Under the pieces are notes generated by a model that had not been told where the DNA came from, searched no databases, and was given only the letters and a program-made list of their open reading frames with translations. Position numbers and translations under genes: made by a program. DNA of 64,000 nt, taken from positions 1,302,001-1,366,000 of the forward strand of contig JAYKKR010000001.1 in assembly GCA_036971615.1 (NCBI GenBank), read 5' to 3'. Shown piece after piece: positions 26,567 through 56,231 of this stretch. Within the stretch, counting starts at the first letter, position 1. The number at the start of each line of letters is the position of its first letter. Source of the stretch: Amyloporia xantha. Lineage: Eukaryota > Basidiomycota > Agaricomycetes > Polyporales > Adustoporiaceae.

Positions 26567-28180
26567 ATGGTATGCTTGATGCGTACTCTGCACCCCCGCT
26601 CAATTGATCAATAGCTCTCCAGGAGTACGGCGAAGGATACGGAAGGCCCCAATGTAAGTAACCAGCATTCCTCGCGCATTCACGTCAGGGCCGTCCGATC
26701 CCCCATCGATCTTCATCGCGACATCCTCGCTCACGTTCTCCTCTTAAGCGAACGAGGAATACGGTGCTCCTCGCCGCAGACCAGAAGGTGGAGGTGGAGA
26801 GTACGAAGAAGGCCGTCGTCAAGAGTACGGCGGCGGCGAATATGCAGGAGAACGTCGCCCGCAGTATGAGGGCGCTCCAGGCCAGGAGTACGGCGGCGCG
26901 CCTCACCACCACCATCATCATCCCGAGGGAGGTGGACAGGGTTATGAGGGTGGTGGCGCGCCCCTCCACGAGTACCCGCCGACCGGGCGCAACCCGTACG
27001 AGGGCGGCCGCCAAGAATACGGCGATGCCCCTCAGTATGGAGGAGGACAACCTCCCTATGAGGGTGGTCGCCAGCAGCATGGTGCGCCTCAGTACCCTGG
27101 TGGCGGGGAACGACCGCAGTACGAAGGCGGTCGTCAAGCGTATGATGCTCCGCAGTATCCTGGCGAAGGAGGCCGCTCTCAGTATGGCGGCGAAGGAGGC
27201 CGGCCGCCGTACGAGGGCGAAGGCGAATACTCAGCTCCCCATCGCCGTCCAGAAGGACAACCGCAGTATGCGGGCGGTGAGCAACAGTATGGCGCCCCTC
27301 CCCACCGCGGCGCAGCCGAGGAATACTATGAGGGTGCTTCTGGCGCTCCCCAGCCCGCTGGCGGCAGGGGCGAACCGCAGTACTCGCAGACGGGTGGTCA
27401 ACAGTACAACTCCCCGTACCATTCGGGTGCGGGAGGGCAGCCGCAAGTCCACAGTGGTGGCCCGCAATGTGCGTGCTGCTCCCGAGGATCACGGCCAGAC
27501 GATCGTGCTGATTCATGTGTGTGTAGTCGATCCAGAGCAGGTTGCAAGCTCCGCAGTGCAACACGGCGGGGGCGACCCGTCCGCCTACGCGGCCGCGCTC
27601 CAGCACGTTCAACAACACTCGGTAAGCCGATCACAGTCATACCGTCGGCTAGAGCTCATCACCGCCCATCGTGATTCATCAGAGCGAGCATGAACAGCCC
27701 ATCGACGAACAGCACGTCCAGGATGCGCACAGGCAGGCATACCAAGAGGGTAACGCGGGCAACCTCAGCGCCAGCTCCATGGGCGGTGCAGCCGCTCTTC
27801 AGGTATACTCACAGCAATTCATATTTATTGCGATCTCGCGATCTCACCGCTCTTCATGTACAGGCGATGAAAAAGTTCACCTCTGGCGGTGCTGGAGGCG
27901 GGTCGGGCTCTTCGTCCGATCTCATCAGTATCGCCATGGCTGAGGCGTCTAAGCTGTTTGATTCGTCCGGTGGCGCCGCATCCGGCAACAAGCAGGATGC
28001 CCTCAACGGCGCCGCGTCGACTGTCATGAAGATGCTTGTGCAGTCGAAGTTCGGCGGCGGCACCACGGGCGGCGCCAGCAGCGGCGGACTGAGCAGCATC
28101 ATGGGTCTGGTAGGTCGCTTACGATGCTTGGGTGACTGTGGCTGATCCTGGACACGTTTTAGGCATCGAAGTTCTTGTGA
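26567..28180 (+). CDS. beta-fg: Beta-flanking protein (MAT-A-linked conserved fungal protein)
   Basis: Conserved basidiomycete protein of unknown function, the classic neighbour of the HD mating-type genes. The start ATG at 26567 is followed at once by an intron; joining to EYGEGYGRPQ and then to EEYGAPRRRPEG (acceptor just before CGAACGAGG near 26747) gives a long Tyr/Gly/Gln/Pro-rich N-terminus. It contains many EYGG/PQYGG/YEGGRQ-type repeats and a HHHHHH run (~26900). After introns at ~27470, 27620, 27800 and 28109 the conserved C-terminal domain follows: DPSAYAAALQHVQQH, DEQHVQDAHRQAYQ, SMGGAAALQAMKKFTSGG, ISIAMAEASKLFDSSGGAA, KQDALNGAASTVMKMLVQS, end ASKFL with TGA at 28178-28180. Long ORFs on the opposite strand here are shadows of the repeat codons. 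Confidence 0.87.
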
Positions 28181-31100
28181 GAGTGATCAGGAAGCGAACA
28201 GTTACCCCGTGGACGGTCGATCGAAGAACCGCACGTTGTACTAATTGTATACGTAGCTTTGTGTACATCTGATACATCTAACTGTAAAACCATGCCTGAT
28301 CTCGGACAACGCGTAGTCGTACAGAGTGTCCTAGAAACATCGAGCAGCACATAGAACCAAGGTCCAATAATATCACAAGGTAACCCGTCGCCAAGGATGT
28401 CGAGGATCACCTCGGAGAGGCTGAAAGATGTATGTTTGACTATGGCGAAGTGTGCAGAGATACAGTAATGAGGGGGTCCACTTGTCAATTCGCTGTGCAT
28501 GTATGGTCCCCGCAAGTGGCATTCCGGGAACGCAAGAGTGATCGAATATTTATACCGACGGCGACTCCATGCATGGATGACAGCGCGATCATTGCCCATC
28601 CAGTCGCCTGGGGTAATAGAGTGAAATGGGGATTGCCGGGCATGCGTAGGTCCAGATTTTGACCACTCATCAGGGCGTCTAAGCTAAAAGGTTCGATTGC
28701 CGAGTACTACGAATATGAATTTGACGCCTGCGAGACGACTTCGATGAGTGGGTCCATGAGCTGCTACAGCCTATCAGTGTCGGAACGGTAGCTCACGGTA
28801 AAGCGATATGTGATGAAAGTCTGTTCCTGAAGTCTGAGACTACGACTGCTATGAAACGGCGGTGGTATGGCGGATGCAGCAGAAGGTAGAACGTACCGTC
28901 GATGAGCCTTCAAATGAAGTTGCAGGATGGTCTTCTCGCTTTCGAGTGTTTGCATCCTAGCGGCCGCTACGTCTGCGGAGTATCGAAAGAGGGGAAAGTT
29001 GACGCTTAGAAACGAACGACGTCACATTTTCGTCAGAAGTCGATATCATACACTGATGCGGGGTTGAGAAAGAAGCGGACGCGGGTGAGAATTCGAATAC
29101 GAAAATACGATGCGCGTCTAGCGGTATGGACGAATGGTTTCGTGAACGCCACCGATAGATGACGCGACCCATGGATGTGCCGTATATGAGTGAGATGATT
29201 TCAAGAGTTGTTGAATGTGACATTTATGCGAGCCAACGAAGACACGGATGCCGGGCTAGCTAGAAAGCCGACATGAAGACACTCATTTGGATCACCGTCA
29301 CGGAGTGGATTACGTTGTCCAGAGAGCTTGGGGTCGTTCATGATGTCGCGACCCACCGGATGAAGCACAAAGAAATGGTATTTACAGTCGTGACCCAAAT
29401 CTGGGTGCACATGTGGGAGCTGGCGTATAGATGTGTCGGTCGGATACGCAGTCTTCGGTCCTCAAGCGCTGAGCATCCGTCGCCGCAAAAATCGTTGGGC
29501 GTGTAGATAATAGTGAAGGCAATCCGTCCATAGAACATACTTAAGACAGGCAATACTGTATTCCTGCGGAAGTCTTGCTGGCAACAAATCGTTTAAACAG
29601 ATCGCTGGAAAGCGTGTGATGTAACAAAGCGGCCTTTGGGAGACTCGTCATTGATCCAGGTAGTAGATGAGATGGCGGTTGGTCGGTGTTGGTCGTAGTA
29701 GTGTAAGGATAGCGGCACAAGATTCGTTGCAGACGACGGAGGTCGACGGCGAAAGCGTGAGAGTCGATGGAGGGAAAGAGCGAACCAATTGCCGATAGCG
29801 TCGCGGTGGCGAGCTGGCTGATCGATCAACGCAACACATATAAGGGTCAAGGCCTAGACAGACGTAGCGGGAGGACCACTTACAATCAATTCTTTCTTCC
29901 TTGCCAAAAGAACTGCTGAGGTCTACTTCGCGTCTTATTCTTCTACGTCCACGGGAAGGCTTGACATCGCTTTGCCGAGCGATGTTGCCCACAACTGGAC
30001 TCTGGAGGTTCCGACAGCGCTCGCGCCGCAGGCTCCGGGCCTGAATGGCCGCCATATCAAGAGCTACGCTCTCTTTCCTCCACCGACGGACTCACTTGTG
30101 ATTCACGGCGAAGGCGGCGCAATCACGACGAAGTCAAGTCGCTTCTCGGTGGGGTAGCATATGGGTACAATGCCGACTGCTATCGCGTCGGAGCCTGCAG
30201 CATTACTTCCACAACGCGAAAGCCCTCACAGCGAGATGGCGTAGCCCCTCGCTAAGAGACGACTCTCGCTGCAAGTTCGATGCGTGGAGGATCTGTTCCC
30301 TCAAAGTGCAACGGCGACACACGGTGAGTCATTCTGATTTACAGGGTACTCCGCGGCGTGATAGCGCCTCCGTGCACGTCGCCTGTATGAGCGAAGGCAG
30401 GTCGCAATATTGCGGAGTCGACAAAGAGTCAACTGCGACTGCCGCCTGCATCCATATCCACTGCATTACATATGCAGTGAGACGTTTTGCGTATATCTGC
30501 ATCGATTCCCGCATCCTACGGCGAGTCGCAGACAGCCGGCATTGCAGACCGCCATCGCCACTAAGGCAGCTCATCTACCGAGCATGCACTAAAGTGCATG
30601 TCTCGGTATGTTTAGGCTCTTCGAGAGGTTTTTCGCGGATGAGCTGCCTCTCGGGATACATATCGTCGCCCCTAAAGGATGTAAGACGGACTGTGAAGTA
30701 GGTCTGTCACAGAGCGTTATGTCACGTGTCACTCTCACGCTCACCTAAAGGTTCCCGCAAGCACCAACGAGCACCTTGCAAGTCGAGGAATGCTCGTAGC
30801 AAGGTGGATTTTTGTGCCATCGGGTAAAGCTGCTTTTCTCGAGCACAGACAGGTTGGACGAGCAGGAAACGTGACATTCCTCTCGTGTGGTAACCATAAC
30901 TAGCAATATGAAAGAGCATCCTGGGACTGTCACCCAGTAGACACGCTCTGCATGCGTCCTATCTCTCTCTGCATAGAATCTAGACCCGATGGATGCGATG
31001 AGCACCCGTCAGAGGATGAAATGCACCGTTTGGCGTCGCAATCGCGGATGCGGGGAAGCCATGTGCAGGATGGTCGCGTCAGAGGTGATACATGCCTTGC

Positions 31101-32023
31101 ACCCTGATCCACGGTGCGCCCTACGAGAGACAGTAGGTTTTCATAGATTCACCACCAGTATGCGGTTCGAAGTCCCCAAACGTACGGTGTATGTCTGAAT
31201 GGCCACAGACAGTAGGTCTCCAGCAATCACCCTCGATACTCGAAAGATGGCTGGTCCGACCGGCGATCAGTCTCATATTGGAGGTCATCGTCTGTCGGGA
31301 CACAACGTAGTAATTTCTCCATCTGATATATGTCTGACGGTGAATGGTGGTGACCTGTGGGTGCTTCCCCTAGCCGCCATGCTCGAAAGAGGCCAGATAC
31401 GACGACCGGCCAGTCTAACCGGCCAGTCTCACGTCGTTTGCCAGTATCGTATTTGCCTATCCGTTGTCGGCGAGCAGCGCTATACCAGAGAGAAACGAGC
31501 GGTGGGATCGTCGACCAGTGCGGGTGACAACTTAGCTGCCGCGGTGTCAGGCATACATTGAATTCAGAAGCAGGTTCGGCGAGCAAGCACGCCGATGAAT
31601 AGCAGGTTACGACGACCACCGCACGACCCACGATTGTCCAGCACAAGTTCCGCACCCGCCCATCACTCACTGCTGTCTATCCTCTGCGTCATCTAAGGGA
31701 TATCTGATCGGGGACGTAATATGGAGGTCATGCATTCCTAGGACACTGCGGCTCATCATAAAAATTTCAATCACAGCGCTCATCGCTAAGCTAGTGTTTT
31801 CCAAAGAGGTTATTCAGTCGGCTTCCAGACCAAGCAATTTTTGTCGGCGTATGGCGGGCGGGCACTGCGGAGAATAAAGCTCGTTTGAGGACCGTTCTCC
31901 CTCTCTTTCTCCCTTATTCTTCATTTTCCTCTCGATCTCAAATAACGCTCTTTGCTCTCTGTCTGTCTCGCATCACTCGCTCTCATCCTCGCTCTCGGTT
32001 CTACATTTATCGCGCCCTGGTCC
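28181..32023. other. 3.8-kb region without a supported gene
   Basis: Between the beta-flanking gene and the small gene at 32024 I find no ORF with a recognisable domain or a convincing splice chain; all ORFs are under ~150 codons on both strands. A nested hairpin at 30564-30649 is the only strong structure seen. From about 31890 a C/T-rich tract leads into the next gene and looks like its core promoter. The region may be decayed coding or mobile DNA. Confidence 0.35.
30564..30649. repeat. Nested inverted repeat (two-tier hairpin)
   Basis: The outer arms AGGCAGCTCATC (30564-30575) and GATGAGCTGCCT (30638-30649) are perfect complements. Directly inside the left arm, TACCGAGCATGCACT (30576-30590) pairs with 30593-30608 across a 2-nt loop with a single bulged base. 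A third short hairpin (cactgca/tgcagtg) lies upstream near 30459-30480. No coding context. Confidence 0.6.
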
Positions 32024-32604
32024 ATGTTCGGAACAGCGGCAACAAGCACCAACTACGGCAATAAATTTGCCGCCCCCGCCGCTCCTTTGCACCCACAAGG
32101 CTCTATGCGTCTGCCGGCCTATCGCCCGTCAACCATGGGTAGATTTCATCCCTATGGGATGCAAAAGCGTCCCAAGAAAACGGATTTGATGGTAAGCATG
32201 GCGCCCCAAGCTACATCGCGATAATCTGGATGCCTCATGCTTTCTACCTCACATATATATAGGAAACTATAGACCTGCGCTATGATGAAGATGCTGCGCT
32301 GGTGCGTTCTACGTCTCGGTCATCATGCTTAGTCGGCTGACCGCCATGGTCATACAAATAGTCCATCATCGTCGAGGAGGATGAGCTGGATTTGGTAAAT
32401 TTGGCTACCGCGTTGACGGATTCGGATACTCCCACTCCTTCTATCATCGAAAGAGCCAGGCAGGTCGGGATTGTTGGCGCAGTAATGGTACGCCCCGTCA
32501 TCACCAAGGCTTCCGCGTCACGAAATGACGTTATTACTGTCGCCAATCAGAGTCTTGCTCGCAGGATCCATCGTCGTATGCAACAGATTCACACCCCGCG
32601 CTGA
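32024..32604 (+). CDS. Small hypothetical protein, three exons
   Basis: Not recognised. Exons 32024-32191, 32263-32301 and 32362-32604 join at canonical GTAAGC/TATATATAG and GTGCGT/CAAATAG introns, all in phase 0, giving 149 residues. The N-terminus is basic and Pro-rich (LPAYRPSTMGRFHPYGMQ, then KRPKK). The middle is acidic (LRYDEDAAL, IIVEEDELDL) and the C-terminus is mixed with RRIHRRMQQ. There is no signal peptide and no membrane segment if the 32024 ATG is used. The upstream C/T-rich tract and in-phase short introns argue for a real gene; no homologue came to mind. It is the only candidate host gene between the beta-flanking gene and HD1, so it could be locus-specific. Confidence 0.5.
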
Positions 32605-33039
32605 TCTGATACCGCTCGGACACGACCACCGCGACGTCCATGATACCCACTGAAAATACTAATGAGGATCGCAGAAGCCATCTCACCTATCACTGATTTC
32701 TCGCTTGTGCAAATCCCAAGCTGACATTTAATGCAGTACTTAGTCACAACGTACATTATTAGATTTACATAATAGCCTGATGCCACTATGATCACTTATT
32801 CGTACGCTTATAGTCAGCAACTCAATGTGTATAATTGTATCCAAACTGCATAGTAGTGACAATCATACTAGCCGCTTTTGTCCTTGCTTTTTGGAGCCAT
32901 TTACGGCACGTTCAATTGCTACGGCGTGGGCAGCTCTCATCCATTTAGATACCGGACCCAGATGCCACTATGACACACAACTCACCCATTCAAAGAATAA
33001 CATCCGGAAATTTAGCAGGCCGATGGCTTAGACACATTA
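32605..33039. other. Intergenic, AT-rich
   Basis: 435-bp AT-rich spacer between the small gene and the foldback element. No feature seen. Confidence 0.3.
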
Positions 33040-33190
33040 GGGGAGTTCAGAGTAGGGTTTTCGAGGCGGTTTTCGCGCAGGTTTTCCGCTCAGCTTTCAG
33101 CCTCGGTGGAAACCGAAAACCGCGGTCAGCTTTGATCGTGGTGCGGAAAACCGCTTTCAGCTTTCGGCATGCGGACGCGGCATTGTGGTC
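33040..33190 (+). repeat. Left inverted arm of the foldback element
   Basis: Matches the reverse complement of 33450-33600 along its full length with scattered substitutions. Confidence 0.75.
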
Positions 33191-33449
33191 GGCACAATAG
33201 GGCTTTATGTAATATTCCATACTAGGCAGCTACTGTCCTCAGTTTAAGCACGACTATTATTCAACCTTGGCTCCCATTAAAATAAAATAAAATTCTTTCC
33301 GGCAGGTTATATCTAGTCAGTCAGAGATAATGTACCATGTTTGCACTCATAAGTTTAGCCCTAGAGGAGTGAGTACACACTGTTATGAGTAAGGTACAAT
33401 GCACAGACGCGCGGCTTTCCCCGTCCTTTCCCAGTATCTTTCGGACTCC

Positions 33450-33600
33450 GACCATGGTGCCGCGTCTGCGTGCCGAAAGCTGAAAGCGGTTTTCCGCACC
33501 ACGATCAAAGCTGACCGCAGTTTTCGGTTTCCACCGAGGCTGAAAGCTGAGCGGAAAACCTGCGCGAAAACCGCCTCGAAAACCCTACTCTGAACTCCCC
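33450..33600 (-). repeat. Right inverted arm of the foldback element
   Basis: Reverse-complement partner of 33040-33190; ends at gaactcccc followed by TA. Confidence 0.75.
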
Positions 33601-33692
33601 TATTGTCTTGCGGGATCAACGCGGGACGGACTCAAGATCAATGAAGCAGCGGCTCTTCAACAAAGTCTGCCGCACGGCACGACCCTGCGCGG

Positions 33693-34575
33693 TGATACGA
33701 CCTACGAAACCCTAACCCCTGCACAAGGTGCGAACAAAAGGGCAATGGAATCGTAATAGGAATGGTCTATGTGTGAGGGAGTTAGCAGCAAGGTGTCCTG
33801 CGTTTCGGCGAATGCGAAGCAACGTCTCGAAGGCGTACGGGGAATACTAGAAGGGCTCGAAGTATGTCGAAGAAGGGTCGAAAGGTCTCGAAGGATCGTG
33901 GTGTCAGAGCGCAGTCGGAATATCGAAGAATCGAAGGAAATCGGAGTAAATATCGAAGCGAGTCGTAGAAGAATCGAAGCGAAGCGTAGGCGTAGTCGTA
34001 GTAGAATCGAAGCGTAGTCGAACGATAGAGCGTAATCGAGGCTCTAGAGAGGAACTGAGGCGAACTCGACTTAAGAGCTCTGAACTGAGGGGGAAACTGG
34101 TGGAATATAACCTATTGAAAGAGATAGCTAAGACAGGATTTTATACTACTACTCAGAACGATCTACTACTAATTGGGAGTGGCACACTAGTACGAGTGGC
34201 TTGCATTGTCTAATGACGTTACTGATTTCTATATTAGGCTCGAAGATCGAATGGCCGAGAGACTCGGAGTGGCACGAAGCGATACATGCGTTCTCCTGCT
34301 GCTCTATTGTTCGCTCGAAATGGCTAGGCTTCTTCGAAGGAACGTCTCGAAACATCGAAGCGTCGGAGCATCGCGTCGAAGCATCGTAGGAACATCGAAG
34401 GTATCGGAGATCGAGTCGAAGAGTCGAAATGATCGGAGATGATCGAAGCTGATCGAAGCAATCGGAGTATGATCGTTGAGCGTCGAAGGTGATCGAGTGA
34501 GTCGAGTGTCGAATCGAAGAGGTAGAGCTGGCGTAGTGAGCCGTTTCTGAGCACAGACGGATCAAGTACCTATCA
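33693..34575 (-). repeat. 3' LTR (left copy)
   Basis: 883 bp, essentially identical to 37034-37916. It is dense in the word TCGAAG. ORFs inside it are repeated in the other LTR and are not genes. Confidence 0.9.
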
Positions 34576-34585
34576 TCCCCCCACA
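34576..34585 (-). other. Polypurine tract
   Basis: On the minus strand TGTGGGGGGA directly abuts the TGATAG start of the 3' LTR, as expected of the plus-strand primer site of an LTR retrotransposon. Confidence 0.65.
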
Positions 34586-34927
34586 AACTTAAATTTGGAC
34601 CGTCCTCGGTCCTCACATGACTGGACCTAGAGCAAAGACGAAAAACTTCGAAGAACTTCGAAATGTCGAGTGATAGGGGAGGGAAGTCGAAGCATCGTCG
34701 AAAGTAGCGTTGTGGAAGTGACGTCGAAGTCGAAGCTAGGAATGGAATGCATGATTATGTTGATAGTGGAAGGCATGGTGGAGTGCATATGAGCCAGGTA
34801 AAGATTGGATTCTCTGGTGGCGTCTGAAAAAGCTATGCAAAAAGTAAATAGACAGAAATGCTCCTAGAACGCCAGGGAATGCTGTAAAATCGTTTCTGAA
34901 AAAATCCAGAAAAAGTTGCTAAGGTCT

Positions 34928-36751
34928 TCAGGTCGAAGGTATGTCAGCCGCAATCGAAGATTTCGAAGCTGCATCGGAGTGCTTTTCTCGAAGCGCAGGC
35001 GAGATCGACAGGAGCTCTTCGCGAGAAATCGAAATGATGGGGGATTTCATTGACCGAACGAAGACTTCTTCCGCAAGACGAGGCTGATAGACCGGAGTGA
35101 CTGTCTTGTACGTCGAACCTTTTCCTTTTTCGTACGAAGGCTTCGAAGCGAAATTGCGAACGGCTGGCGGAGCGTAGGGAACCTTGGTAGCCTGAACGAA
35201 GGACGGAGCCGGCGTGGGCTGACTGTTCGAAGCGTAGCTCGAAGGCGAGTGGACTGTGTAGGAGGTCGGCGAAGAACGAACGAGGTAGGGAGACGAAATC
35301 GAAGGGAAAATCGAAGCGCGGGTCGTAGTCGTAGTCGTAGTTCTCGAGGTCGTAGGGACGGTTGCGGGCGAAGTCGAAGAGTCGAAGCGGAATATCGAAG
35401 GTGAAGGCGTGGGTACTCGAACTGTCGAAGCGATATTCGGAGGTGTCGAAGGCATTGAAGGCACAATCGAAGTCGTAGGCATGGTAGATTTGCGCTGTAG
35501 CAGCTCGACTCGATGCGGGGCCTGCTGAACCTTTCGAAGCTGATGCAATTCTCGTTCGAGGGCGTCAATGCGTGCAGCGGTGTTGAGCTTGTAATTCGAA
35601 GGATTGTCGTACAATCGCTGTGCTGGAGTCTGCGTCGAAGAGTGCTGTCTGTGCCATTCGAGGGTGCGATCGCGAATCGTAAAGCCGGGGGTCGATCGAG
35701 GGACGAAGCTACCTGTCGGAAGTACTATCTTGCCGTCGCTGTTGCGCTTGCATAACCCTGCTGCGATGTCTGCTGTGACCTGTGAACAAATACTAATCCA
35801 ACAATTCTCTTTTCCGCAATAATGGCAAAACTGCTTTGGCTGTACTGGTTCGATGCTCGTAGTGTAGATCGAAGCTGTCGAAGGCGCTGGGAGAGTCGTA
35901 GAATTCTTCGAAGGGTCTTGCGCCATAGATGCAATTGTCGAAGGGATCGAAGGGATCGAAGGGAGCGCACTGCCTGTCGAAGTATTCGTCGAAGGAGTCG
36001 AAGGAAGCGCAGGGACTGTCGAATGATTCGAAGCCGTAGGTGCTGTAATCGAGGCGGAGGGCGTAATTGAAGTACCATGTAGAAGGAATTTCGCTGCATC
36101 GAAGATTGCGTCGAAGGTGTATGGCTCATCGGGCAAGTGATCGGGATGCTTGATTTCGAGACGAGAGCGGATTCGAGCGAGGAATGCGGACTGGAAACCT
36201 TTGACGAAGATGTGGGACTGCTCGATAGACGATAGACGGCCTTTTGTAACGAGGGACTTCGAAACGACGAGGAACTCGCGATAGTAGCTGGCTAGGTCTG
36301 CGAGGTTGTGAACTCCGATGCGAGCCCGTTCTCCAACGAGCTGCTCGAGATCTGCTAGAGACCAATGGCTGGATTCGGAACCGGGGTAGAGCGACCGGAC
36401 GTCTTTTTCAAAATCGTCGAACGAAATCGAGGCATTGTCGAAGCTATCGAGGATCTCCCATAACTCGGAGACATCAAGGGACGTATAACGAACTGCCCAT
36501 TTCTTCTTGTCTGCATCGCGGGTGACTTGACAGCGTACGAAGAGCGTCTCGAGGTCCTGAAAATAACGTCGCAGGGAACGAACGTCCGTAGGATCGAAAG
36601 TCGGAGCTGTTTTATGTCCTCGAAGTGGCATAAACTCTGGCATAGCGGGAGCTGAGCGTACTGGACTTCGCAAAGGATGCGTACTCGAAGAGCGTCTAGT
36701 GGAATTAGCTGGACTGGGGATCTGGGATGGCTGAATCGAAGTGTGGCTCAT
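34928..36751 (-). CDS. Retrotransposon Gag protein
   Basis: 607-codon ORF, ATG at 36751 (MSHTSIQPSQIPSP). The capsid-like region (~residues 50-230) has FDPTDVRSLRRYFQDLETLF, KKKWAVRYTSLDVSELWEIL and SLYPGSESSHWSLADLEQLV, typical of fungal Ty3/gypsy-like Gag. Ser/Thr/Pro-rich linkers built from repeated codons follow. Then comes a zinc-knuckle-like CHYCGKENCWISIC (~residue 315), which lacks the usual His spacing, and a conserved block FVPRSTPGFTIRDRTLEWHRQH. A second low-complexity tail runs to 34928. There is no Pol downstream before the LTR. Gag packages element RNA into virus-like particles. Confidence 0.82.
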   Translation of the reverse strand: MSHTSIQPSQIPSPANSTRRSSSTHPLRSPVRSAPAMPEFMPLRGHKTAPTFDPTDVRSLRRYFQDLETLFVRCQVTRDADKKKWAVRYTSLDVSELWEILDSFDNASISFDDFEKDVRSLYPGSESSHWSLADLEQLVGERARIGVHNLADLASYYREFLVVSKSLVTKGRLSSIEQSHIFVKGFQSAFLARIRSRLEIKHPDHLPDEPYTFDAIFDAAKFLLHGTSITPSASITAPTASNHSTVPALPSTPSTNTSTGSALPSIPSIPSTIASMAQDPSKNSTTLPAPSTASIYTTSIEPVQPKQFCHYCGKENCWISICSQVTADIAAGLCKRNSDGKIVLPTGSFVPRSTPGFTIRDRTLEWHRQHSSTQTPAQRLYDNPSNYKLNTAARIDALERELHQLRKVQQAPHRVELLQRKSTMPTTSIVPSMPSTPPNIASTVRVPTPSPSIFRFDSSTSPATVPTTSRTTTTTTTRASIFPSISSPYLVRSSPTSYTVHSPSSYASNSQPTPAPSFVQATKVPYAPPAVRNFASKPSYEKGKGSTYKTVTPVYQPRLAEEVFVRSMKSPIISISREELLSISPALREKHSDAASKSSIAADIPST

Positions 36752-37012
36752 GTTGAAAACTTCGAAGGGAATCGTAGTGGATGTCGAAGGCTATCGTCGA
36801 ATCGAAGGGAAGTCGAAGGGAAGGTCCTGTAGTCGAAGCAAAGTCGAAGGGAACGACGTAAAACCGAAGGTACTTCGAAGGTAAAGCCGTAGTGCTGCTC
36901 GAGATCGAAGGCGACACTGTGGACGTGGATGTCGCAATATAGAGCACAGTGGATGCCGACTGTTGGCAGACGTGTTCGGAAACCCAAAAGCAGCGAATTC
37001 TTGCCTGTAACC

Positions 37013-37029
37013 CCTCGCGGTGGGCTCCA
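37013..37029 (-). other. Primer-binding site
   Basis: Four bases inside the 5' LTR the minus strand reads TGGAGCCCACCGCGAGG. It starts with TGG as needed to pair with a tRNA CCA end. Its complement could form a 7-nt acceptor strand plus a T-stem strand; I could not name the tRNA. Confidence 0.55.
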
Positions 37030-37033
37030 GAAA

Positions 37034-37916
37034 TGATACGACCTACGAAACCCTAACCCCTGCACAAGGTGCGAACAAAAGGGCAATGGAATCGTAATAG
37101 GAATGGTCTATGTGTGAGGGAGTTAGCAGCAAGGTGTCCTGCGTTTCGGCGAATGCGAAGCAACGTCTCGAAGGCGTACGGGGAATACTAGAAGGGCTCG
37201 AAGTATGTCGAAGAAGGGTCGAAAGGTCTCGAAGGATCGTGGTGTCAGAGCGCAGTCGGAATATCGAAGAATCGAAGGAAATCGGAGTAAATATCGAAGC
37301 GAGTCGTAGAAGAATCGAAGCGAAGCGTAGGCGTAGTCGTAGTAGAATCGAAGCGTAGTCGAACGATAGAGCGTAATCGAGGCTCTAGAGAGGAACTGAG
37401 GCGAACTCGACTTAAGAGCTCTGAACTGAGGGGGAAACTGGTGGAATATAACATATTGAAAGAGATAGCTAAGACAGGATTTTATACTACTACTCAGAAC
37501 GATCTACTACTAATTGGGAGTGGCACACTAGTACGAGTGGCTTGCATTGTCTAATGACGTTACTGATTTCTATATTAGGCTCGAAGATCGAATGGCCGAG
37601 AGACTCGGAGTGGCACGAAGCGATACATGCGTTCTCCTGCTGCTCTATTGTTCGCTCGAAATGGCTAGGCTTCTTCGAAGGAACGTCTCGAAACATCGAA
37701 GCGTCGGAGCATCGCGTCGAAGCATCGTAGGAACATCGAAGGTATCGGAGATCGAGTCGAAGAGTCGAAATGATCGGAGATGATCGAAGCTGATCGAAGC
37801 AATCGGAGTATGATCGTTGAGCGTCGAAGGTGATCGAGTGAGTCGAGTGTCGAATCGAAGAGGTAGAGCTGGCGTAGTGAGCCGTTTCTGAGCACAGACG
37901 GATCAAGTACCTATCA
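37034..37916 (-). repeat. 5' LTR (right copy)
   Basis: 883-bp direct copy of 33693-34575 at a constant offset of 3341 bp. Should contain the element promoter. Confidence 0.9.
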
Positions 37917-38484
37917 GCGGGCGAGAGGCGAAGTCCACTAAAGTCCCTCGGGCGATTCGGTCCAAGGACTCCAAATCTCCCTCATAATTATTCAATGTCA
38001 CTTCGAGTGTATTTACTGTCATCGCTGACAGTGTTGCAAGCTGAAGATTGAAAGGGCTACGGCTCACACTGAGAGATGACGTAAGTACTCCACAGCATCC
38101 CATAGTATGAGCTATTCTATGTTTCGAAGACTACGTCCAAGTTCGTCGGTTTGTTCAATAGTTAGAAGGTTTTCAGTTATCTAGCGACCTACGCCTGCTT
38201 CGTGGCCACATAAATTCTTCTAAAGTGTCGCTTTGCAAAAATACCTGATTCCATGGAAATATTTATTTAATCGTACGTGTTGATCATTTCTCTTGAAGTA
38301 AAGGAAGTAAAGGACTTGGACTTTGCGTGCTGCGAGAGCGGTACATCACGACTACACTTGCACACTTGCGCAATGGCAGTCACTGCAGAGCTTGAAAAGC
38401 CGTGCGAAGTTACTACAATGTGATAGTCGAGGAAGATAAAGATGCGGAGTATCTCCATTCTGATAGCATGTCGCTGGTAACTAA
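37917..38484. other. Spacer between LTR element and composite inverted-repeat structure
   Basis: 568 bp, AT-rich after 38100, with only short ORFs. No feature recognised. Confidence 0.3.
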
Positions 38485-38504
38485 CAGCCAACGAAAAAAC
38501 GATA

Positions 38505-38908: not shown

Positions 38909-39131
38909 TAGACGTTTTGCCCTTCGTCAAATGATGTCTCTCAGCCACACGGCAGCTAGGCCTTTTAGGGCAGGAGGGCGGCCGACGAGGTGAGGGTATG
39001 ACGCACTCGATACCTCAGACGGTAAGCCCGAGGCCCTCGGAGCAAATTCTGTCCGTTTCCGTCACGTGATGTCTGCTCGGCCACTGAGCATTGTGGCTCA
39101 TTGTGAGAACGTCCTGTCCGCTGGGAGATTT

Positions 39132-43656: not shown

Positions 43657-43737
43657 GTCTCGTTTCGACTCTACCTTACCATCCGCAACAGTTTCTTCGA
43701 CCCAACCGCGTCCTTACACCCAAGGCTTAACCCCCAT

Positions 43738-44848: not shown

Positions 44849-44930
44849 ATTATGGTGAGTCTTAGCTCCTACTCGTTCGGGGAATCCGCGGTCTCGCGAA
44901 TGCGTCGCTATCCTCCTAATATTTGGGAAT

Positions 44931-45234
44931 CGCTGCTCACCCGGTTCTTTCCCCGTAGCGCGTGGGGCGCTCATCGTGTCGGTCAGCCTGCCGGGCTGTC
45001 GCCCACTCTCGTTCTATCCTTTTGCTTTTGCTGTCCTTACTCTCTATGCTTTCGTTTCCATCTCGAACTGTCGCCACATGTCTTTCTCATCTTATCATAT
45101 CTACGTTGGTTAATCATTTGTAACATTTCAGTATCCTCGCCTGGTAATACACCTGCCTAACTCCGTATCTCCCCTATCTACTCCGATAAGGAGAGTCCTA
45201 TCGTCTCAGCGAGAGTTTTAGCACGTGCACAGAT
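44931..45234 (+). repeat. Repeat B1
   Basis: 304 bp matching B2 at 46621-46924; its last T is the first base of A2. Confidence 0.87.
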
Positions 45235-45379
45235 GAGCGTCTCTAGGGAGAAGCGAGGTACGAGCGGATCTTAGAGTTATGTCTGTGCACACGCGGTGGC
45301 GAGCGCCTAAGCTTTCTCCTCTCGCCACCTCACCTGCTAACACTGAGACACCTGGCCTGAGACGTTTCATTCTGAAAAA
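45234..45379 (+). repeat. Repeat A2
   Basis: 146-bp copy of A1, directly abutting B1 and carrying the same GGTGGCGAG/CTCGCCACC hairpin. Confidence 0.87.
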
Positions 45380-45595
45380 CCCTCCCTCCCTCTCCTTCAG
45401 ATAATGGGTCCACGGTCCAGTCCTAATGGTCACGCCGCCTTCCTTTCAAGGCCTCTTTTCCTTTTCTTGAATCAGAAGAAGCACCATCATGTCATTCCCT
45501 GCCTTTCTAGCGTGCACCACTAGCCGACGTCAAATTTTTTCCTTTATTTTCCCTCCAACCGACGACGACACCAACTCATCCTTTCCCTACCGACC

Positions 45596-46402
45596 ATGTC
45601 CTCCCAAGAGCTGGCTCCACCACCCTTATTAGCAACCCAAGCATTCGGTGTAGGGGCCCAGAACCTCCGTGTCTTGACAGATAACCACACCGCATCCGTT
45701 GTCTCCAACTCCCACAACACCACATATCCTCCGACAGAGGCCACCTCGTCCCTCCTCCCCATTGTAGTCTACCCGCAGACTTCTGGGCGCTGCGACAGTG
45801 ACATGTACCACTGGATAATGACCAAGAGGATACAACAGGATGTTTCCTTAGGTCTCTGGGTCCAACTTGAAACCCAAGACGGCGGGTTTCCCGTTTGTGC
45901 AGGTCAGATTGCACGAGTTTGGGCGTTGGACAAAAATTGGGTGGTATTCTGGGTGTCAGGACAGTCCTGCAGAAACGCTTTTCTTTGGACGCCCCGAGTC
46001 TGGTCTTGCCTGAGCTGGACGGAACGTTTCTTTGCCTGGCTCCAGGGCAAGAACTCCCTCGCAACGGTCCCCATTCATCCCTCCATGCAGTCCTACTCGT
46101 CCTTCCTTCCCACCTACCGCTATCATCGCTCAGTATCGCTCATTCCCTCCGAAGCTCCCCCCATCACTCCGGTAGAGGTCGACATCGCCCTAGCCCATGC
46201 GCAGCAAATAACAATGGCTCATGATGAAGTTTATCGCAACTCCAGTCACTCACCGGAGGAATCCCGAACCCCGACAGCGTCCTCCTACGACACAATCGAG
46301 AAGGATTTCCGGGGAATAGGCGAGAGGCACCAGGAGGGTGTTTGGCTCCAAGTTCCGAACGCCGTGCGCGCGCCCGACCGCAGCAAGCTCACCAAAGAGT
46401 GA
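45596..46402 (+). CDS. Unrecognised ORF between repeats A2 and B2
   Basis: 268 codons, ATG in a good context after a C/T-rich leader (accatgtcc). Not recognised. The protein has an N-terminal Ser/Thr/Asn-rich part. A hydrophobic/aromatic core follows at ~residues 65-155 (MYHWIMTKRIQQDVSLGLWVQ, WALDKNWVVFWVS, CLSWTERFFAWLQ) with several Trp and Cys. The C-terminus is charged and Ser/Pro-rich. It has no zinc knuckle, RT or recombinase motif and no signal peptide. The Trp-rich core could be a small globular domain. Being inside the split repeat it may travel with the element; it could also be captured host sequence. Confidence 0.5.
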   Translation: MSSQELAPPPLLATQAFGVGAQNLRVLTDNHTASVVSNSHNTTYPPTEATSSLLPIVVYPQTSGRCDSDMYHWIMTKRIQQDVSLGLWVQLETQDGGFPVCAGQIARVWALDKNWVVFWVSGQSCRNAFLWTPRVWSCLSWTERFFAWLQGKNSLATVPIHPSMQSYSSFLPTYRYHRSVSLIPSEAPPITPVEVDIALAHAQQITMAHDEVYRNSSHSPEESRTPTASSYDTIEKDFRGIGERHQEGVWLQVPNAVRAPDRSKLTKE

Positions 46403-46620
46403 TTCTAGGGTGCCCTCTCGGTCCCACCTTTATAGCCAATCTCTTATCGTTTTCGCGGCCTACGCCATGCGCACCCGATAGATACCCAAGGCCCAATGGT
46501 CGATTACTTTCCTTTTTCTTCGATTCCTGGACACGATGAACTCGTTTTTCTCCATCACACATTCCCAGCACAGTTCGGAATGGACCCGCCCTCCGCTCCC
46601 TTCTTTGCCCATCCCTCCCT

Positions 46621-46924
46621 CGCTGCTCACCCGGTTCTTTCCCCGTAGCGCGTGGGGCGCTCATCGTGTCGGTCAGCCTGCCGGGCTGTCGCCCACTCTC
46701 GTTCTATCCTTTTGCTTTTGCTGTCCTTACTCTCTATGCTTTCGTTTCCATCTCGAACTGTCGCCACATGTCTTTCTCATCTTATCATATCTACGTTGGT
46801 TAATCATTTGTAACATTTCAGTATCCTCGCCTGGTAATACACCTGCCTAACTCCGTATCTCCCCTATCTACTCCGATAAGGAGAGTCCTATCGTCTCAGC
46901 GAGAGTTTTAGCACGTGCACAGAT
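46621..46924 (+). repeat. Repeat B2
   Basis: 304-bp direct copy of B1; its end (gcacgtgcacagat) marks the right end of the retrotransposon. Confidence 0.87.
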
Positions 46925-47954
46925 CAGGGAACGAACCTCCCCGTGGACAGGACATTCTGCTCATTGTGGCTGGGCTGTGGCTGCTGTGGCTGCTGGCCCG
47001 TCGGCCGGGGGTGTGCCGTCGGCCGGAGAGATATCTTCGATAGTGTGCGAAACGTCTATCGTTTTTTCGTTGGCTGAAATCCCGGACTAAGTCACTTGAG
47101 GCGCAGCCATTTTCGCGGAGCTTGAGTCAAAGCACATATGCATATAGCGATCATCCATCTCTCTCTAAGGGCAATATTTAAGGTCTGCCTAGAGGAAACA
47201 ACGAGGTATACGTACAAAACTGTCGCTCGATTGCTATCGTTTATAGATGATCTCAAGTTATTTTTTAAGCATTTGCATAGACAACAAGATTTGATCGTGG
47301 TCATGTCGCACCCGCACAGACAACATCAGTTATGACATCTCAAACATTTCATTCCTGTGAATTGTAGCTTATTGTAATTCACTTATTACTACAGGCCAAA
47401 GGAAAGTCTTTGTTCATCGAGAGCAAGTCCATGATGTGCGAATTGTGCGAATTGCAAGTACAAAGCAAGGAGAACGACAGGAAAGAGACGAGGACAGATA
47501 TGGACTGGTATACGACAGTAACTGATGTGACAGGAAAGAGACGAGGAAAGATATGGACCATACGACAGCAACTGATATGTTACAAGATCTGCATTTAGAA
47601 ACTATGAAAAGCAAGCACGATGAGCGACAAAAAAGCGACATTAGAGGATCCTTTAAACTACTAGTACTTGGAAAGCATGGAAAGCACAGCGAGTAACGGA
47701 AAGCACGGGTTCAACGACGAGCTACGAACAAAGCACACAGCAGCAAAAACATGACAACGCAAGCAACATGAAAACACAAGGTTTGGCTCACTAGGATAAA
47801 TAAGACGAGTAATAATGATATATCAATATAGCAAATGCCGTATGTGGGCCTAAAGCAGGGTACCATTATACTGATGAGTGAACCGAAGTCAAGTGGATAA
47901 GCGCACCTAGGAGACTATAATCCCAGCCTCCATTCCTGAGCGTTAGGAATTCAA
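46925..47954. other. Right arm of composite element and HD1 3' flank
   Basis: 46925-47076 is the remaining right end of the composite element, with GGCTGCTGTGGCTGCTGG-type short repeats. 47077-47954 is AT-rich 3' flank of HD1 with a tandem duplication at 47476-47579. No gene supported. Confidence 0.4.
47476..47579. repeat. Tandem duplication, two ~52-bp units
   Basis: Units start gacaggaaagagacgagg at 47476 and 47529 and run through tacgacag(t/c)aactgat, with two small differences and a 2-bp length change. Confidence 0.75.
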
Positions 47955-50388
47955 CTACAATAATAACTTGTTTGGCACAAGAGCGGTCGGTGAAATATCG
48001 ACAACCATACAGTCTTTTGACTTGGGAAAGAAGGGCATAATATGGGGTATCTTGACGTCTATTGTCATGGACCCTTTGGCGAGAGACTTTGATGGATATT
48101 CCACTTCTTGGGAGCGGCAATAAGGAGGCGGAGGCAAACCGGGACTACTGTCAGGAAATTGATCAAATGGAATGTATTGCGGGGATGGAACGTATTGAGG
48201 GGGATTCCGTTCGAACCGAGGGAATGCGTTGTTGCTCTCGGTAAAGGGAGGAGGTGGTGACTCTGTACGCTGTCTATCGTACGGGGTGATACAAGCCAGA
48301 TCAGCACCGCAGGAAGCTGTCCCGCCATTCGCGAGGTCGATGTACGTTTCCGGAATGTCAGCCTTCGTCGGTTTACCTTTGGGCGGACTCTGACGGGACG
48401 CTTGGGGGACAAATGAACCGGCTGAAAGTGGTAGGTCCTGGGCAGTGCCAGAGGGGCTTTTGCCCGTCAAAGTGGGAGTCTCACGAGTAGACGAGGTGCT
48501 AGTCATCCCAGACTTCTTTGGCATCAAAGCGAGATGAGCCAAGGGAGTATTGCCAGCGACACTGCAATGACCGTGCCCCCCATCCGGTACATCCAAATCA
48601 ACCATGGAGGATACCTGGGTAATAGGAGAAGTGGCGATTGAGATCGATGATGAACCCTCTGAAACCGGATGCGCGCTCTGGACATCTGAATTCTCAGGTA
48701 AACTGGATTGTACCACTGAATCGACTGGACAAAAGTCAGCGCGACCCTTACAAGGCCTAGATAAATAGTACGAACCGACTGCTGTGGGGACATCGGTAGC
48801 ACTTCCTTGTAAATCCCCAGTCGACCTCCATCCCGTGAAAACCTTGATATCCAACGGGATGTCAGGATCGGGCTCAACCATTTCAACCTTCCCAGGAAGG
48901 TTGAACGACATGCTGTACCAATCATTGATATTGAAGGTTTCCTCCTCCAGCTCCGCAGCCACCTTCGGCAGGGGATCTGATGCCGCGTGCATACGGGAGC
49001 CTACAAGAAGGCTTTTGGGCCGCTTCGGTATGGGTTCACTATCTCCGTCAGACAAACGTCGCTTCCGGCGCGGCCTAGCACTATTGACGTCGTCGGTTGA
49101 AGACCCATGCGCCTTTATTAAAGCGGGAGAAGCATTGACACCGTCTGTATGACACGGGCACTCAGACAATGCCGATCGAGGAGCGTCGATAAAGCTGTTT
49201 TCGTATGGTCTACTACCAAAGACAAGGGGGGGAGAGGAGTTGGGTAGAGCCATCGTCGTTCTAAGGCGCCTTCAGTAAAGCACACCTGAAGCAAAGTGAA
49301 GACATACCTACGACGTTTCCCATCCCTTTTGTAAGCATTTGCATCCTCCACACGGTTACACAAAGAAGTAACAGAATGATTCCGGATTATTGGTTCCTGC
49401 TGCCACTCCTTACTGTCATCCGACGACGACCACGAAGACACACGTGACTGGGGAGACGTCGTGGGGACAGATGTCGAACGTGACTGTGAATCACATTTGT
49501 TGAACGATCCAGTGAGCAGTTCGTAATCGGAATCCGCAGTCATGGAAGACACACTGCGGTCCTCCCCTGATGCTGCAGTCATGGAGGCGGCGCTGCTTGT
49601 ATCCATAAGTTGGTGGGCTTTGTATTCGATCTGCGCGAAAGCAATTCCTAAATCAGGTGGAAGAGCGTCTTCAGGCTGATATTTGCCAAAGGCGCATGAT
49701 GCAGCCCTAATGATGGCAGTACGGGATCCTTGAAATTGGCCGACACGGAGTTCAGTCCAGCCTATACGTTTGCGCGCCCATTTGAACCATGAAGAGACAA
49801 GCTTCGCCGAGACAGCATAATCTGCCGCAATGTTCTTTTGCAGAACTTTCGAAGGATAGGGATTATGTAGATTGTCCAGCAGCCAGGTATACACGACTAG
49901 ACATGAAATAATTTGTTGGGTAGCTTTCTCAAGGCATCATAGCGGAACTTACCAGCAATAAACGACATTCCTTGATCTGATGAAGTGGAAGATAGAGCAG
50001 GAGTAGATGGTCGAGTCACTGATATGGGCGAGGGAAAATCCTCGAAAGGGGAAGACAGGTCTTTGGAAGGAGAGGATGTATCTTCGATCGTCATGCGCGA
50101 CAAGATCGCTTCAACTTCGTCTACCAAGCCGGATTTGACGGTGTCACATCCCGTGAGTAAACTGTGAAAGGATTCGGCCATTATGGTGACTCTCGCAGCG
50201 ACGGTGTGGGCCAAAGTCAGGATATCTACTGCCAGAGTATTTGAACGCACAGCGACATCGATATCATGTCGCAAACTTGACCAGGTCTTGTCGAATGCAG
50301 AGATTGCGTCACTGCCTATGGCGACAGCACGTAGTAAGTCCTCTTCGATGTGGAACAGTCGGTCCTCAATCGAGTGTGTGGACGCCAT
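47955..50388 (-). CDS. HD1: HD1 homeodomain mating-type protein (A locus)
   Basis: One half of the A mating-type switch; the nuclear HD1 class pairs with HD2 of a compatible mate. Exons 50388-49953, 49896-49308 and 49260-47955 (introns 56 and 47 nt) give 776 residues. Residues ~1-140 are helical (EEDLLRAVAIG, LTLAHTVAARVTIMAES) and form the allele-specific dimerisation region. The homeodomain (~145-205) has the HD1/TALE-type LHNPYPSKVLQKNIA and ends VSSWFKWARKRIGW. The helix-3 WFxN position is Trp instead of the invariant Asn. A bipartite nuclear signal (RPRRKRR with PKRPKS) lies at ~380-410, followed by a Ser/Pro-rich activation-type C-terminus (ESPPPPFTESN, SSPGLPPPPYC). Divergent from HD2 with 281 bp between starts. 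Confidence 0.93.
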
Positions 50389-50669
50389 TCAGTGGGGGCT
50401 AAGTTGAAATTCTATCAACAGTGAGAACGTGCATTTAGTAGCCCCACAGTTTACAGTTGTCCGGCCGTTGCCGAAATGGGACAATGTGGTGTTTAACACA
50501 ATCCACTCACGCAGGCACGTGAGCGTGGCTTAACGAAGCTACGAAAATGGAGTACAATGGGAATGACAACAATACTATGACAACAATACTAAGTATGTAT
50601 GTAGCGTTCTCACGTGTCGGCATCTTGTAAGGATTCGCTTGACATTTCGAGACTCAACTTGCTACTACC
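50389..50669. promoter_or_regulatory. Shared divergent HD1/HD2 promoter
   Basis: 281 bp between the two ATGs. It contains a direct repeat of atgacaacaatacta (50561 and 50577) and cacgtg-type E-box words (50515-50520, 50611-50616). This region should drive both mating genes and be the boundary of the allele-specific block. Confidence 0.6.
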
Positions 50670-52994
50670 ATGTCTCGTCGCTCTCGCATTGATGTGCTGC
50701 GACAGATCGCTTCCGTCGCACACAAGTTTGCAAAAATCCTACCCTCTTCTTGCACATCAAACTCATCGCTGGCGCGTTCGTCTCCGGATTCCAATGAGAT
50801 CAACCGTACCTTTCCAGTGCCTCAGCCGTTAACGCAAGAGCTCGTCGCTCTAGGACTTGACCTAGTCACAGCGGAACGCTTTTCATCCGTATATATGGAT
50901 ACGGCGTTGCGCTCCAAAGAATCGGTGGAGTTGCAATACCGCCGTGCACTTTTAGCCTGTCATCAAATCCCTCGTGGCCACAACTTGGACGATACAAGAA
51001 CACGGACCTCCCTCTATGATGCATTTCTATCGGCATATACCAGAAATTTAAAATTATGGGCCGATCGCATTGCCACCGATTATGTTCCACGGATTCTTAA
51101 GGCGAGACAGGCCCGCACACAGAAGTCACAGAACGCATCGGCCATTCGTAAAACAGCACGGCGTTCGTTTAACTATGTGCGTGCATTTGTGTCTTCCAGT
51201 TTCGCATATTTATTGATCCATTATGCAGAATGCGGTTCCCATTCTTGAAGAAGCCTTTGCCCTCAATAGACGCCCTTCGCGTGCAGAAAAGCTCGATCTT
51301 GCGAACACGACTAGCATGGAATACAGGCAAATAAATGTTTGGGTTGGTTGACTCGTTCTCCCATTGTACTGCCCGAAACTGAGATTACGTTAGTTCCAGA
51401 ACCGGCGGAACCGCTCGAAGAAGACTGACGGCGAGGTTGTCACTAGTTCCATTATTTCTGCGGAATTTGAGGAATCTGTGGCCGACATCCTCTCCGAAGA
51501 GTTAACAGACGCCATTGTCCCAGAAGAGAAGCATTTGGTACGTTGTATGACGTAACTAAACCCTAGTACTTGTCTTCACGTTTACCCTATCTTCAGCATC
51601 CCGTTTCTTCAGTCGTTCAATCCCCAGCATTAAACCTTGAGCGCCCACCTCACGTCTTTCCATCACCCTACCCGCCGACATGTGCTGATGATCCATTTCC
51701 CATTCATCCAAGTTCGCGCAATTTTGCGACCCCCTGGTACCGCACAAGCTCTGTATCTCGCAACTGTGTATCTGCTTCCACGGATATCACACGCTTGGCG
51801 GATTCATTTGCCAGGTTAAGTGTGTCAGATGACTCGAAGATACGGTCGTGCAAATTGTCTTCTGGCCAACTCCATAGACGACCTCATCCACTTCTAAAAG
51901 CATCATCCGCTGCAGAAATTGGCTTCACGACTGTCGTACCGCGTGCGCCTCTCCCTGCACTCGTACCTGTATCTGGCAGCAGACCATGTCCACCCCGTCC
52001 CACCTCTCCGACTTCAAGAAAAGTGTCGCGACACAAGATGTCAGCATCTAAAGCAGAAAGGGCTTCGTCAGACTATTATCTGGCGAGGTGTGCTGTCCCC
52101 ATCACCAGGTCTACCACCGCGACTGGCCTTTTTGGGACATCTACAAACTCGTCACCGGTTGCCCCTAGGCCCGTGGTGTCGTCTTCTACGCTCCGAAGCT
52201 GTTCATCTCCCATTGGCTTCCGCCAGTACTCATCCACATCTAGTCCAAAAGATCATCTATCATTATGTGCCAGCCGGCCACCATCTACCTCAGACGCCGG
52301 TCGGTTGCCCAGCGCTCGACCTGTGGCTGTTAATATCTTGTCTCCCGTGCCGAACACGTCGCCGAGGAAGACCATGTCGTGTGCACACTCATCACCCTCT
52401 TCTTCGTCACGACGACGAAAGTCGCGGGCCACCAGTGTCAGCGTGTCCTCATCGCTCTCGTCTTCTAGAAGTGTTAGAAGTATCTCGAGCCTAGATGATT
52501 GCGGTAGAGAAACACAACACTTCTATCGCCCTTACCCTCCATCAAAATCTTGTTCAATAAGAAAGGTTCACTCCCTTCCCAGACGCATGCCGCATGGTGC
52601 GGGTGCGAGTATACCTGCCGACCCTTTCATTACGCCTCCGCCGTCATCTAGTCGGTCTACCGCTATGTTGTCACGCGTATCATCAATTAGCTCTACATGC
52701 TCAATATCGTCAACTGATTCCAGCTCGTGCTCTGATTCGGAACCTCCTCTCACTCCACCTCCAATTTTCACTTCTCTCCCCGAACCTCTGATTTCGGTTT
52801 CTAGTTTCGAGTCGCAGGTTGATTCAGGTGCTCGTCCTTTCGTTGGAGATCAATTATTGGACGATTCATCTGGTGGCGGTTCACTGCAGAATTTCCTCAG
52901 TGATGATCTGGGGCATTTGGGACTTCGGACGTTCGATTTTGCATGGTGCGATCAGCTGCCAGTGACTGATTTTACTCCGTTCCGTGTTTTTTGA
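50670..52994 (+). CDS. HD2: HD2 homeodomain mating-type protein (A locus)
   Basis: Second half of the A mating-type switch; it supplies the sequence-specific DNA binding of the HD1-HD2 dimer. Exons 50670-51176, 51229-51342, 51394-51537 and 51597-52994 give 720 residues. The N-terminus is helical and allele-specific. The homeodomain (~150-213) reads FNYNAVPILEEAFALNRRPS, then LANTTSMEYRQINVW, then FQNRRNRSKK, a canonical WFQNRR helix 3 with an intron exactly between Trp48 and Phe49. The long C-terminus is very Ser/Pro/Arg-rich with SSSRRRKS-type basic patches, and ends TFDFAWCDQLPVTDFTPFRVF. The final codons lie in a tandem repeat that continues past the stop. Start ATG follows a typical actaccATG context. 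Confidence 0.94.
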
Positions 52995-53716: not shown

Positions 53717-56231
53717 TCAATGCCTGCCAGGCATGGAGACTTCATCCTCAATTTTCCATCTCCCTACCTCTGCCATAGCTTCTGCATCTCCACACTCCAA
53801 CTCCGGCGCACCTAACAATTTGCTCACCATCACCCACGGGTCCTTCCCTCCGCCATGCTGCAATACTTCGCGTTTGAACTTCTCGCCTGTCCTTCGGTCA
53901 AGCGGATCGTGCGCAAAAAGCTTGCTCCATACCCGCGAAGCTATTGCACGATCAAAAAGGTAGGAGTAGTACGTCGCGCCGTATCCGAAGAGATGCCCGA
54001 ACTGGGTCTGCCAGGACGTCCCTGGAACGTACGGGATGAGCCCACGTGTGTCATACAGCTTCGCGAGTGCGGCCGTCGATTCAAAATTAGCATCAAGTGC
54101 TGCAGGTGAGTGATAAATTTGATCTAGGGCGGCGAGGAGGATCTGGGTGTGCGTGTCGATGGAGCGACAGGGGTCTTCGTGGTGGTTGCCGGTCTGCCTG
54201 ATGGCGAAGGTGCCGTCACGATCGAAAAGGGAGAGGACTGCAGGAGAGTTGAGGAAGTGTTCCATGAGAATGGAGGGAAGCTCGACGAAATCGGTGGCGC
54301 AACGCGTGCCAGAGACGTTCTGGTACTCTGTCCGTCCGATCATCGCTGCGAGCGCAATGTTAATAAGTACCGCATTTCAAAACTCCAAAGGACAACTACT
54401 CACAATGCATGGCGTGTCCCATCTCGTGAAAAAGCGTCATTACCTCATGCCATTCGAGAATGGTAGGCCCGCGAGTAATAGATGGTCTGGCAAACTCGCA
54501 TAGGAGGACAACCAGTGGAAGCTGAAACGTGCCTTCCTGACCAGGAAATTGCCGCCGGTGCGCAGACCCGAAATCGCGAGACATCTGCACAACCGCTCTG
54601 TCATGCTCATCGGCATGTATGAGGTCGCCTTCGACGTCGTCGTCATCCGTTCGCCGTGAACATCGTACAGTGTAATGTGCAGCTCCGCTCGGCTTCCCTC
54701 TCCGTGCGAAGAGGTCTGCGTAAATCCAGCCAAGCACGCCGGTCTCCTCGTCCACCACCTCTAGTTTCCGTACATCCGTGTGCCATACCTCCCCCGGAGA
54801 TACATCCGCTAGCCGGAGAGATATACCATACAGGTTCTGGAAAAGTCGAGACAAGCCCATGAACACCGTACCGAGCGTCAGCGGTGGTAATGTGACCGGC
54901 GGCGCTGGCGGTTCTGGCGGACAGTAGTAGTCCCTATCCCAAGCCTGGATAATTGGGAATGGAGGTGTGTTTAGATGTGCTTGTTTCCGCATGCTGAGCG
55001 TTCGTAGGGCGTTTCTGGCGTACGGCTGCGTGTGGTCCATCAGGGCGTCTAGGAAGTGTTGGACGTTTTCTAAGACGAAACCGAGAGTTTAAACACTCAA
55101 TTGGTCCGAAAACGCTCTAAAGAAACGCACCTGGTGATTTAGCCATCTTATCGGCAAGGGTCATATGCGCGAAACTGCTCTTCCCCACTAATCGAGCGAG
55201 TTCACCCCGCGCACGGAGAAGCCTTTCTAGGACTTCAATTTGCTCTGGTGAGCTCGCATTGGCCGCCATGTAGACCTTCCTCCGAGGTTCCTCGGCTGGC
55301 GCAGACCGCATGATCATCTGCGCCTGTAGGGAACCCGGGTAAACAAGTAGGTCCCGATTGGTGACCTGTGCTTGCAATCTAAGTCGGGCACCCATGCCCA
55401 TATCCTTCAGCCCCTGGAGTTCCGCCGGCTTGATGACAGCAGGAGGGCGAGCGCTGGCAGTCTCGTTGAGAAATTGCCGCCCGAGGAGCAAAATTTCGGT
55501 CGATAACGAGACGAAGCGATTGCGCTGTTCAGGAGGCAGGTCAATGCCAGACTTTTCGAAGTCCCGCCAGAATATGAGGGCTGTCTGGTACGCTTCGGGG
55601 CTGAGCGACTTTACGACTTCTGGATCGGAAAGTACAGCATGCAGAACCTGTAGATGATACATATTCAAGTCTACTCATGGAATAAGACTACTAAGTTCAT
55701 GCGTACCTCATACAACCCTACGTGGGTATTGAGAATGTTCATGAACTCGCATAACTTTTCGTAAACTTCGTCGGCGCTTTGAACCCAATATTTGTCAGGA
55801 TGTGCATTTCGGATCAGCTCCGCGAGGTCAATGACTCCGCATAGCAGGTCGCTGAGCCTATCCAGGTTCTTCACCACCTTGAACAGCTCTTCCCGGGACT
55901 CCCGAGCCCTCAACACACGTTCTGTGAGAAGTTGAGCACGGCGAAGAGTAGAGTCGGCTAGAGCGTTGAAGGCGGAAGGCGTGGTGAGTACAGGGTGTCC
56001 AAATAGTCCAGTATAGTGAGATGAGGTCGCGCGCTGTGCAGACTGAGGCTGGTCAAACAGGGCTACGACGTCCACATCGTCGCGTGAGGCCGGTAATGGG
56101 AGTACGGCGGTTGCGGTCGCAGGACGAGAGAAGACATGGGGTGCGTCTCGCTTAGCATTGAGACAGCCCTTGAATCTGAAAGTCGGTCTGGCGTGCTTTG
56201 GAAGCGCATTCCTCGCAGCTTTTGCGAGCAT
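53717..56231 (-). CDS. MIP: Mitochondrial intermediate peptidase (Oct1/MIP)
   Basis: Matrix zinc metallopeptidase (family M3) that trims octapeptides from imported proteins; the standard flank of the HD locus in Agaricomycetes. I start at the Met at 56231 because [20 protein letters not shown] is a good presequence. The frame is open up to an earlier Met at 56387 (MTARRRRC), which could be used instead. Exons join at introns near 55707-55640, 55127-55070 and 54405-54345. Landmarks: [54 protein letters not shown], then the active-site HEMGHAMH (54400), the downstream metal-ligand region [13 protein letters not shown], and [21 protein letters not shown] near the end. Stop at 53717. Length and motifs are complete. 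Confidence 0.95.

Follow-up and report, generated by a model that had tools for sequence, protein, structure and literature searches.

The DNA analysed here, a window of 64,000 nucleotides (C1:1302001-1366000 of a 46.8-Mb assembly in 60 contigs), carries the MAT-A (HD) mating-type locus of a brown-rot Polyporales fungus in its haploid state, a reading to which we give a probability of about 95%. The identification as a single-pair locus follows from the domain content of the two homeodomain genes, their divergent order, the genes that flank them and their single-copy status in this one assembly. The layout is already known for Polyporales, and a complete single-pair locus is no surprise; what is gained is that one more brown-rot Polyporales genome has its HD locus described in full, and that the exon models of HD1, HD2, bfg and MIP could be used for mating-type primers.

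Gene content, flanks and copy number

The features of the locus are collected in Table 1. For HD1 and HD2, splice sites were picked by eye from GT-AG ends and open frames; the two introns of HD1, 56 and 47 bp long, are of the GT-AG type.

Table 1. Features of the MAT-A region, in positions of the window
Feature	Position	Strand	Description
RPB2	2484..6238	-	RPB2 domains; extent from ORFs; left flank, linked to MAT-A
ABC1 atypical kinase	11670..14041	-	ABC1 match on ORF 12135-12692 only; extent by eye
Glycogenin-like gene	15278..19484	+	Only ORF 15278-15685 matched; 3' extent inferred
Beta-flanking gene (bfg)	26567..28180	+	410 aa; modelled with 7 exons, the first being the ATG alone; DUF7721, 77.9 bits
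bfg-HD1 interval	28181..47954	.	19.8 kb, of which about 11.5 kb is two retrotransposons
LTR element	33693..37916	-	Gag-like ORF only; 883-bp LTRs with TG...CA ends
Ngaro-like retrotransposon	39614..46924	+	7.3 kb; split direct repeats; RT-like and tyrosine-recombinase-like ORFs; accessory 292-aa ORF
HD1	47955..50388	-	776 aa; 3 exons (50388-49953, 49896-49308, 49260-47955); Mating_N, Homeobox_KN, Mating_C
Divergent spacer	50389..50669	.	281 bp, between starts at 50388 (-) and 50670 (+)
HD2	50670..52994	+	720 aa; 4 exons (50670-51176, 51229-51342, 51394-51537, 51597-52994); PF00046
MIP, mitochondrial intermediate peptidase	53717..56231	-	778 aa; 4 exons; Peptidase_M3

The original prediction had named an HD1-class homeodomain from the motifs LHNPYPS and RKRIGW. 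Both are present, and the spliced protein matches PF05920 (Homeobox_KN) at 33.3 bits, above the cut-off of 24, together with Mating_N at 22.0 bits (cut-off 21.4). When single exons were scanned, the scores were 35.5 bits for Homeobox_KN, 25.8 for Mating_N and 37.2 for Mating_C, the last of which was recorded at exon level only and is absent from the listing for the spliced protein. HD1 thus has a TALE-type homeobox with the HNPYP motif at its centre, Mating_N at its N-terminus and Mating_C in its last exon. A structure model of the homeobox is a three-helix homeodomain whose nearest structures are TALE. The basic stretch at residues 404-425 (RPRRKRR...PKRPKS) looks, by eye, like the expected nuclear localisation signal; a script for the bipartite pattern gave no match in HD1. 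Protein searches with HD1 (one of which scored the 7991 candidates sharing most words) returned no named Polyporales HD1.

The neighbouring gene encodes the HD2-class homeodomain that had been predicted: the spliced protein gives a PF00046 match of 52.6 bits (E 3.9e-14) over all 57 positions, a classical homeodomain with the WFxNxR signature in the form WFQNRR in helix III. Two introns split this homeodomain, which is why the unspliced HD2 ORFs had no Pfam match. HD1 and HD2 are transcribed divergently and stand 281 bp apart, as foreseen, and the short spacer is presumably a shared promoter region.

The genes on either side are those of a MAT-A locus. MIP, expected beside HD2, is there, with Peptidase_M3 matched on three of its four exons, and its conserved start methionine at 56231 falls exactly where the original prediction had ended the locus; the bfg model starts at 26567, where the prediction had begun it. 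Among the best 120 of 750 listed matches, MIP shares 89% identity with the Postia placenta protein and 84-87% with those of Wolfiporia cocos, Laetiporus, Rhodofomes, Amylocystis, Fibroporia and Taiwanofungus. These relatives are brown-rot fungi, and the identities suggest that the species stands near the brown-rot Polyporales. Between HD2 and MIP, a 98-bp unit is repeated three times in tandem (53121-53426). The beta-flanking gene was also expected beyond HD1 and is indeed found on that side, but at a distance of 19.8 kb and across retrotransposons. To the left, where RPB2, glycogenin, Lu7TM and a YPL109C-like kinase had been named, RPB2 and the kinase (ABC1) were recovered, the glycogenin-like exon matched glycogenin-1 weakly (22.5 bits, E 0.0011), and Lu7TM was not found among the ORFs scanned, which included part of those in the left flank. 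The same flank holds a fructosamine-kinase domain and an old-yellow-enzyme domain, and ORF 25163-25441 matches MFS_1.

When the HD1 and HD2 proteins were used as queries against the assembly, the three matches of HD1 and the four of HD2 (E up to 0.001) were all exons of the MAT-A locus. Mating_C occurs a single time in the 46.8 Mb, and the MIP query, apart from the four exons of the gene itself, found one weak match, on contig C58 (29.7 bits). From these counts the assembly looks haploid at MAT-A, with the one HD pair that had been predicted.

Profile searches of the genome gave two matches for PF05920 and 11 for PF00046, HD1 and HD2 included. The other homeodomains are a TALE-type one on C58, three within 1.4 kb on C1 at about 1.714 Mb, and others on C1, C5, C34 and C45; these genes or pieces were considered as a second HD locus and rejected, none of them being found by the HD1 or HD2 protein queries (E up to 0.001). 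The three close neighbours (L004, L007 and L008, C1 at about 1.7138-1.7152 Mb) are apparently one gene, possibly, and this is a guess, of the kind of non-mating 'HD3' reported for the same chromosome in Wolfiporia hoelen. Two homeodomain pieces, L009 (C1:1417368) and L010 (C34:671231), are nearly identical (94.6% over 204 bp of DNA), and one of them is on the contig of HD2, about 64 kb to its right. For the pheromone receptor STE3, 24 genome matches were grouped into genes, of which six are on C3 (786-839 kb) and one is on C58. The receptors and the HD genes are thus on different contigs, which does not imply tetrapolarity, contigs not being chromosomes; bipolar Wolfiporia hoelen is described as retaining four receptors (PMC9503964).

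Retrotransposons between bfg and HD1

The LTRs of the element nearer to bfg differ at one of 883 sites and the element has GCGG on both sides, which suggests that it is probably a recent insertion. Its ORF had no Pfam match and was called gag-like by eye. Just before it stands a MITE-like inverted repeat (33034-33606), whose 159-bp arms (96%) enclose 255 bp. The second element was named Ngaro-like from its repeat layout (A1 39614-39768, B1 44930-45234, A2 45225-45379, B2 46620-46924) and from its ORFs as read by eye, these having no Pfam match above cut-off. Searched against the genome, its RT-like ORF gave 40 matches, a count that includes the ORF itself and fragments, with identities as low as 26-27%. 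No Pfam match was seen for five ORFs taken from elsewhere in the interval.

An ORF of 292 aa (45524-46402), also with no Pfam match, is situated between repeats A2 and B2. It was considered as an extra mating-locus gene and rejected, since it is inside the Ngaro-like element and repeated in the genome, where it has nine further matches, six of them weak (E 1.8e-5 to 9.3e-4). As in the present element, an RT match stands some 2 kb upstream of two of these, one on C2 and a weak one on C11. The distance to an RT match is 7.6 kb for a further match on C2 and about 20 kb for one on C23, and for the remaining five no RT match was seen close by. With moderate confidence, we regard this ORF as part of the retrotransposon.

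Helix III of HD1 and the role of the pair

In HD1 the canonical DNA-contact motif, the N of WFxNxR in helix III, is missing: the sequence of the helix is WFKWAR, W standing in the place usually taken by N. The N is present in six of 32 relatives and missing in 26, and a 33rd relative (P0153) also has it; W is found at this place in none of the 32, nor in any of the 33 overall. With W replacing N in its recognition helix, HD1 may not bind bases itself. It is possible, although we lean slightly against it, that HD1 of this lineage has kept the homeodomain fold and lost base-specific DNA contact, serving only in recognition, nuclear import and activation, so that the heterodimer would read DNA through HD2 alone. 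HD1 proteins without DNA contact of their own have already been discussed for Pycnoporus (PMC4101180) and Grifola (PMC10607315), and Pleurotus HD1 proteins reportedly retain WFxNxR (PMC10739230). What is new is the W in helix III, and not the loss of DNA contact by HD1 in general; the locus adds one more HD1 with a drifted DNA-contact motif beside an HD2 that keeps its own.

The drifted motif, together with the retrotransposons that adjoin HD1, one of them with almost identical LTRs, could be taken to mean that the pair no longer controls mating and is a remnant in a lineage that is homothallic or asexual. We consider this quite improbable: HD1 and HD2 are open through all modelled splice junctions and their N-terminal and homeobox domains are recognisable, the N is missing from 26 of the 32 relatives as well, and W. 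hoelen, which also lacks the motif, was confirmed as bipolar by mating tests (PMC9503964). Even less credible, to the point of being negligible, is that HD1 and HD2 are a pair of non-mating regulators with the true MAT-A elsewhere. Other homeodomain genes do exist in the genome, but the two proteins match only themselves (E up to 0.001), the assembly holds only one Mating_C domain, and it is this pair that MIP and bfg flank.

As a MAT-A locus, and by analogy with its family, the pair would act in self/non-self pairing, DNA binding and developmental control. HD1 and HD2 from one allele would not pair, while after mating the HD1 of one nucleus would join the HD2 of the other through their variable N-termini; the heterodimer would enter the nucleus and then switch on dikaryon genes, its DNA contact coming mainly from the intact HD2 homeodomain.

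Comparison with known MAT-A loci

The order found here is bfg, HD1, HD2, MIP, with HD1 on the bfg side and HD2 beside MIP. The original prediction took this arrangement as the one that defines MAT-A in Agaricomycetes, which is too broad, because HD2 next to MIP is the inverted order of Polyporales (PMC4101180) and because the pair flips in Taiwanofungus camphoratus. HD1 beside bfg is what PMC4101180 calls "inverted" in Phanerochaete, Postia and Pycnoporus, and the loci of Postia placenta, Phanerochaete chrysosporium and Pycnoporus cinnabarinus resemble ours in this and in having HD1 and mip in the same direction; the HD1 homeodomain of Pycnoporus, however, is more degenerate, with a deletion in helix II (PMC4101180). 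Grifola frondosa shares both the order and the common direction of HD1 and MIP, but its HD1 is reported to have no DNA-binding domain, and its bfg has six exons against the seven of our model (PMC10607315).

In Taiwanofungus camphoratus, HD1 and HD2 also lie between bfg and mip1, but their orientation varies among four monokaryons, one way in W1 and V5 and the opposite in W2 and V7, and the species is tetrapolar (PMC8865532). Trichaptum has the same flanks (bfg, GLGEN and MIP1), a 3-exon HD1 and a 4-exon HD2, and differs in having two HD complexes, alpha and beta (PMC8970355). For Laetiporus sulphureus, two mip genes are given in one paper and three HD1 genes in another, so that not all of these relatives have a single-pair layout.

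Wolfiporia hoelen, as described in PMC9503964, likewise has a single HD1/HD2 pair with rpb2 linked to it, an HD1 without and an HD2 with WFxNxR, and transposons beside HD1, those recognised here being an LTR and a Ngaro-like element. The distance between RPB2 and HD1 is about 42 kb here and 82 kb in that species (PMC9503964), and the HD1 homeobox is recognised here by Pfam and by the structure model, while in W. hoelen the three-helix motif went undetected (PMC9503964). With W. hoelen, our locus makes two cases in which retrotransposons lie between HD1 and its neighbour on the bfg side.
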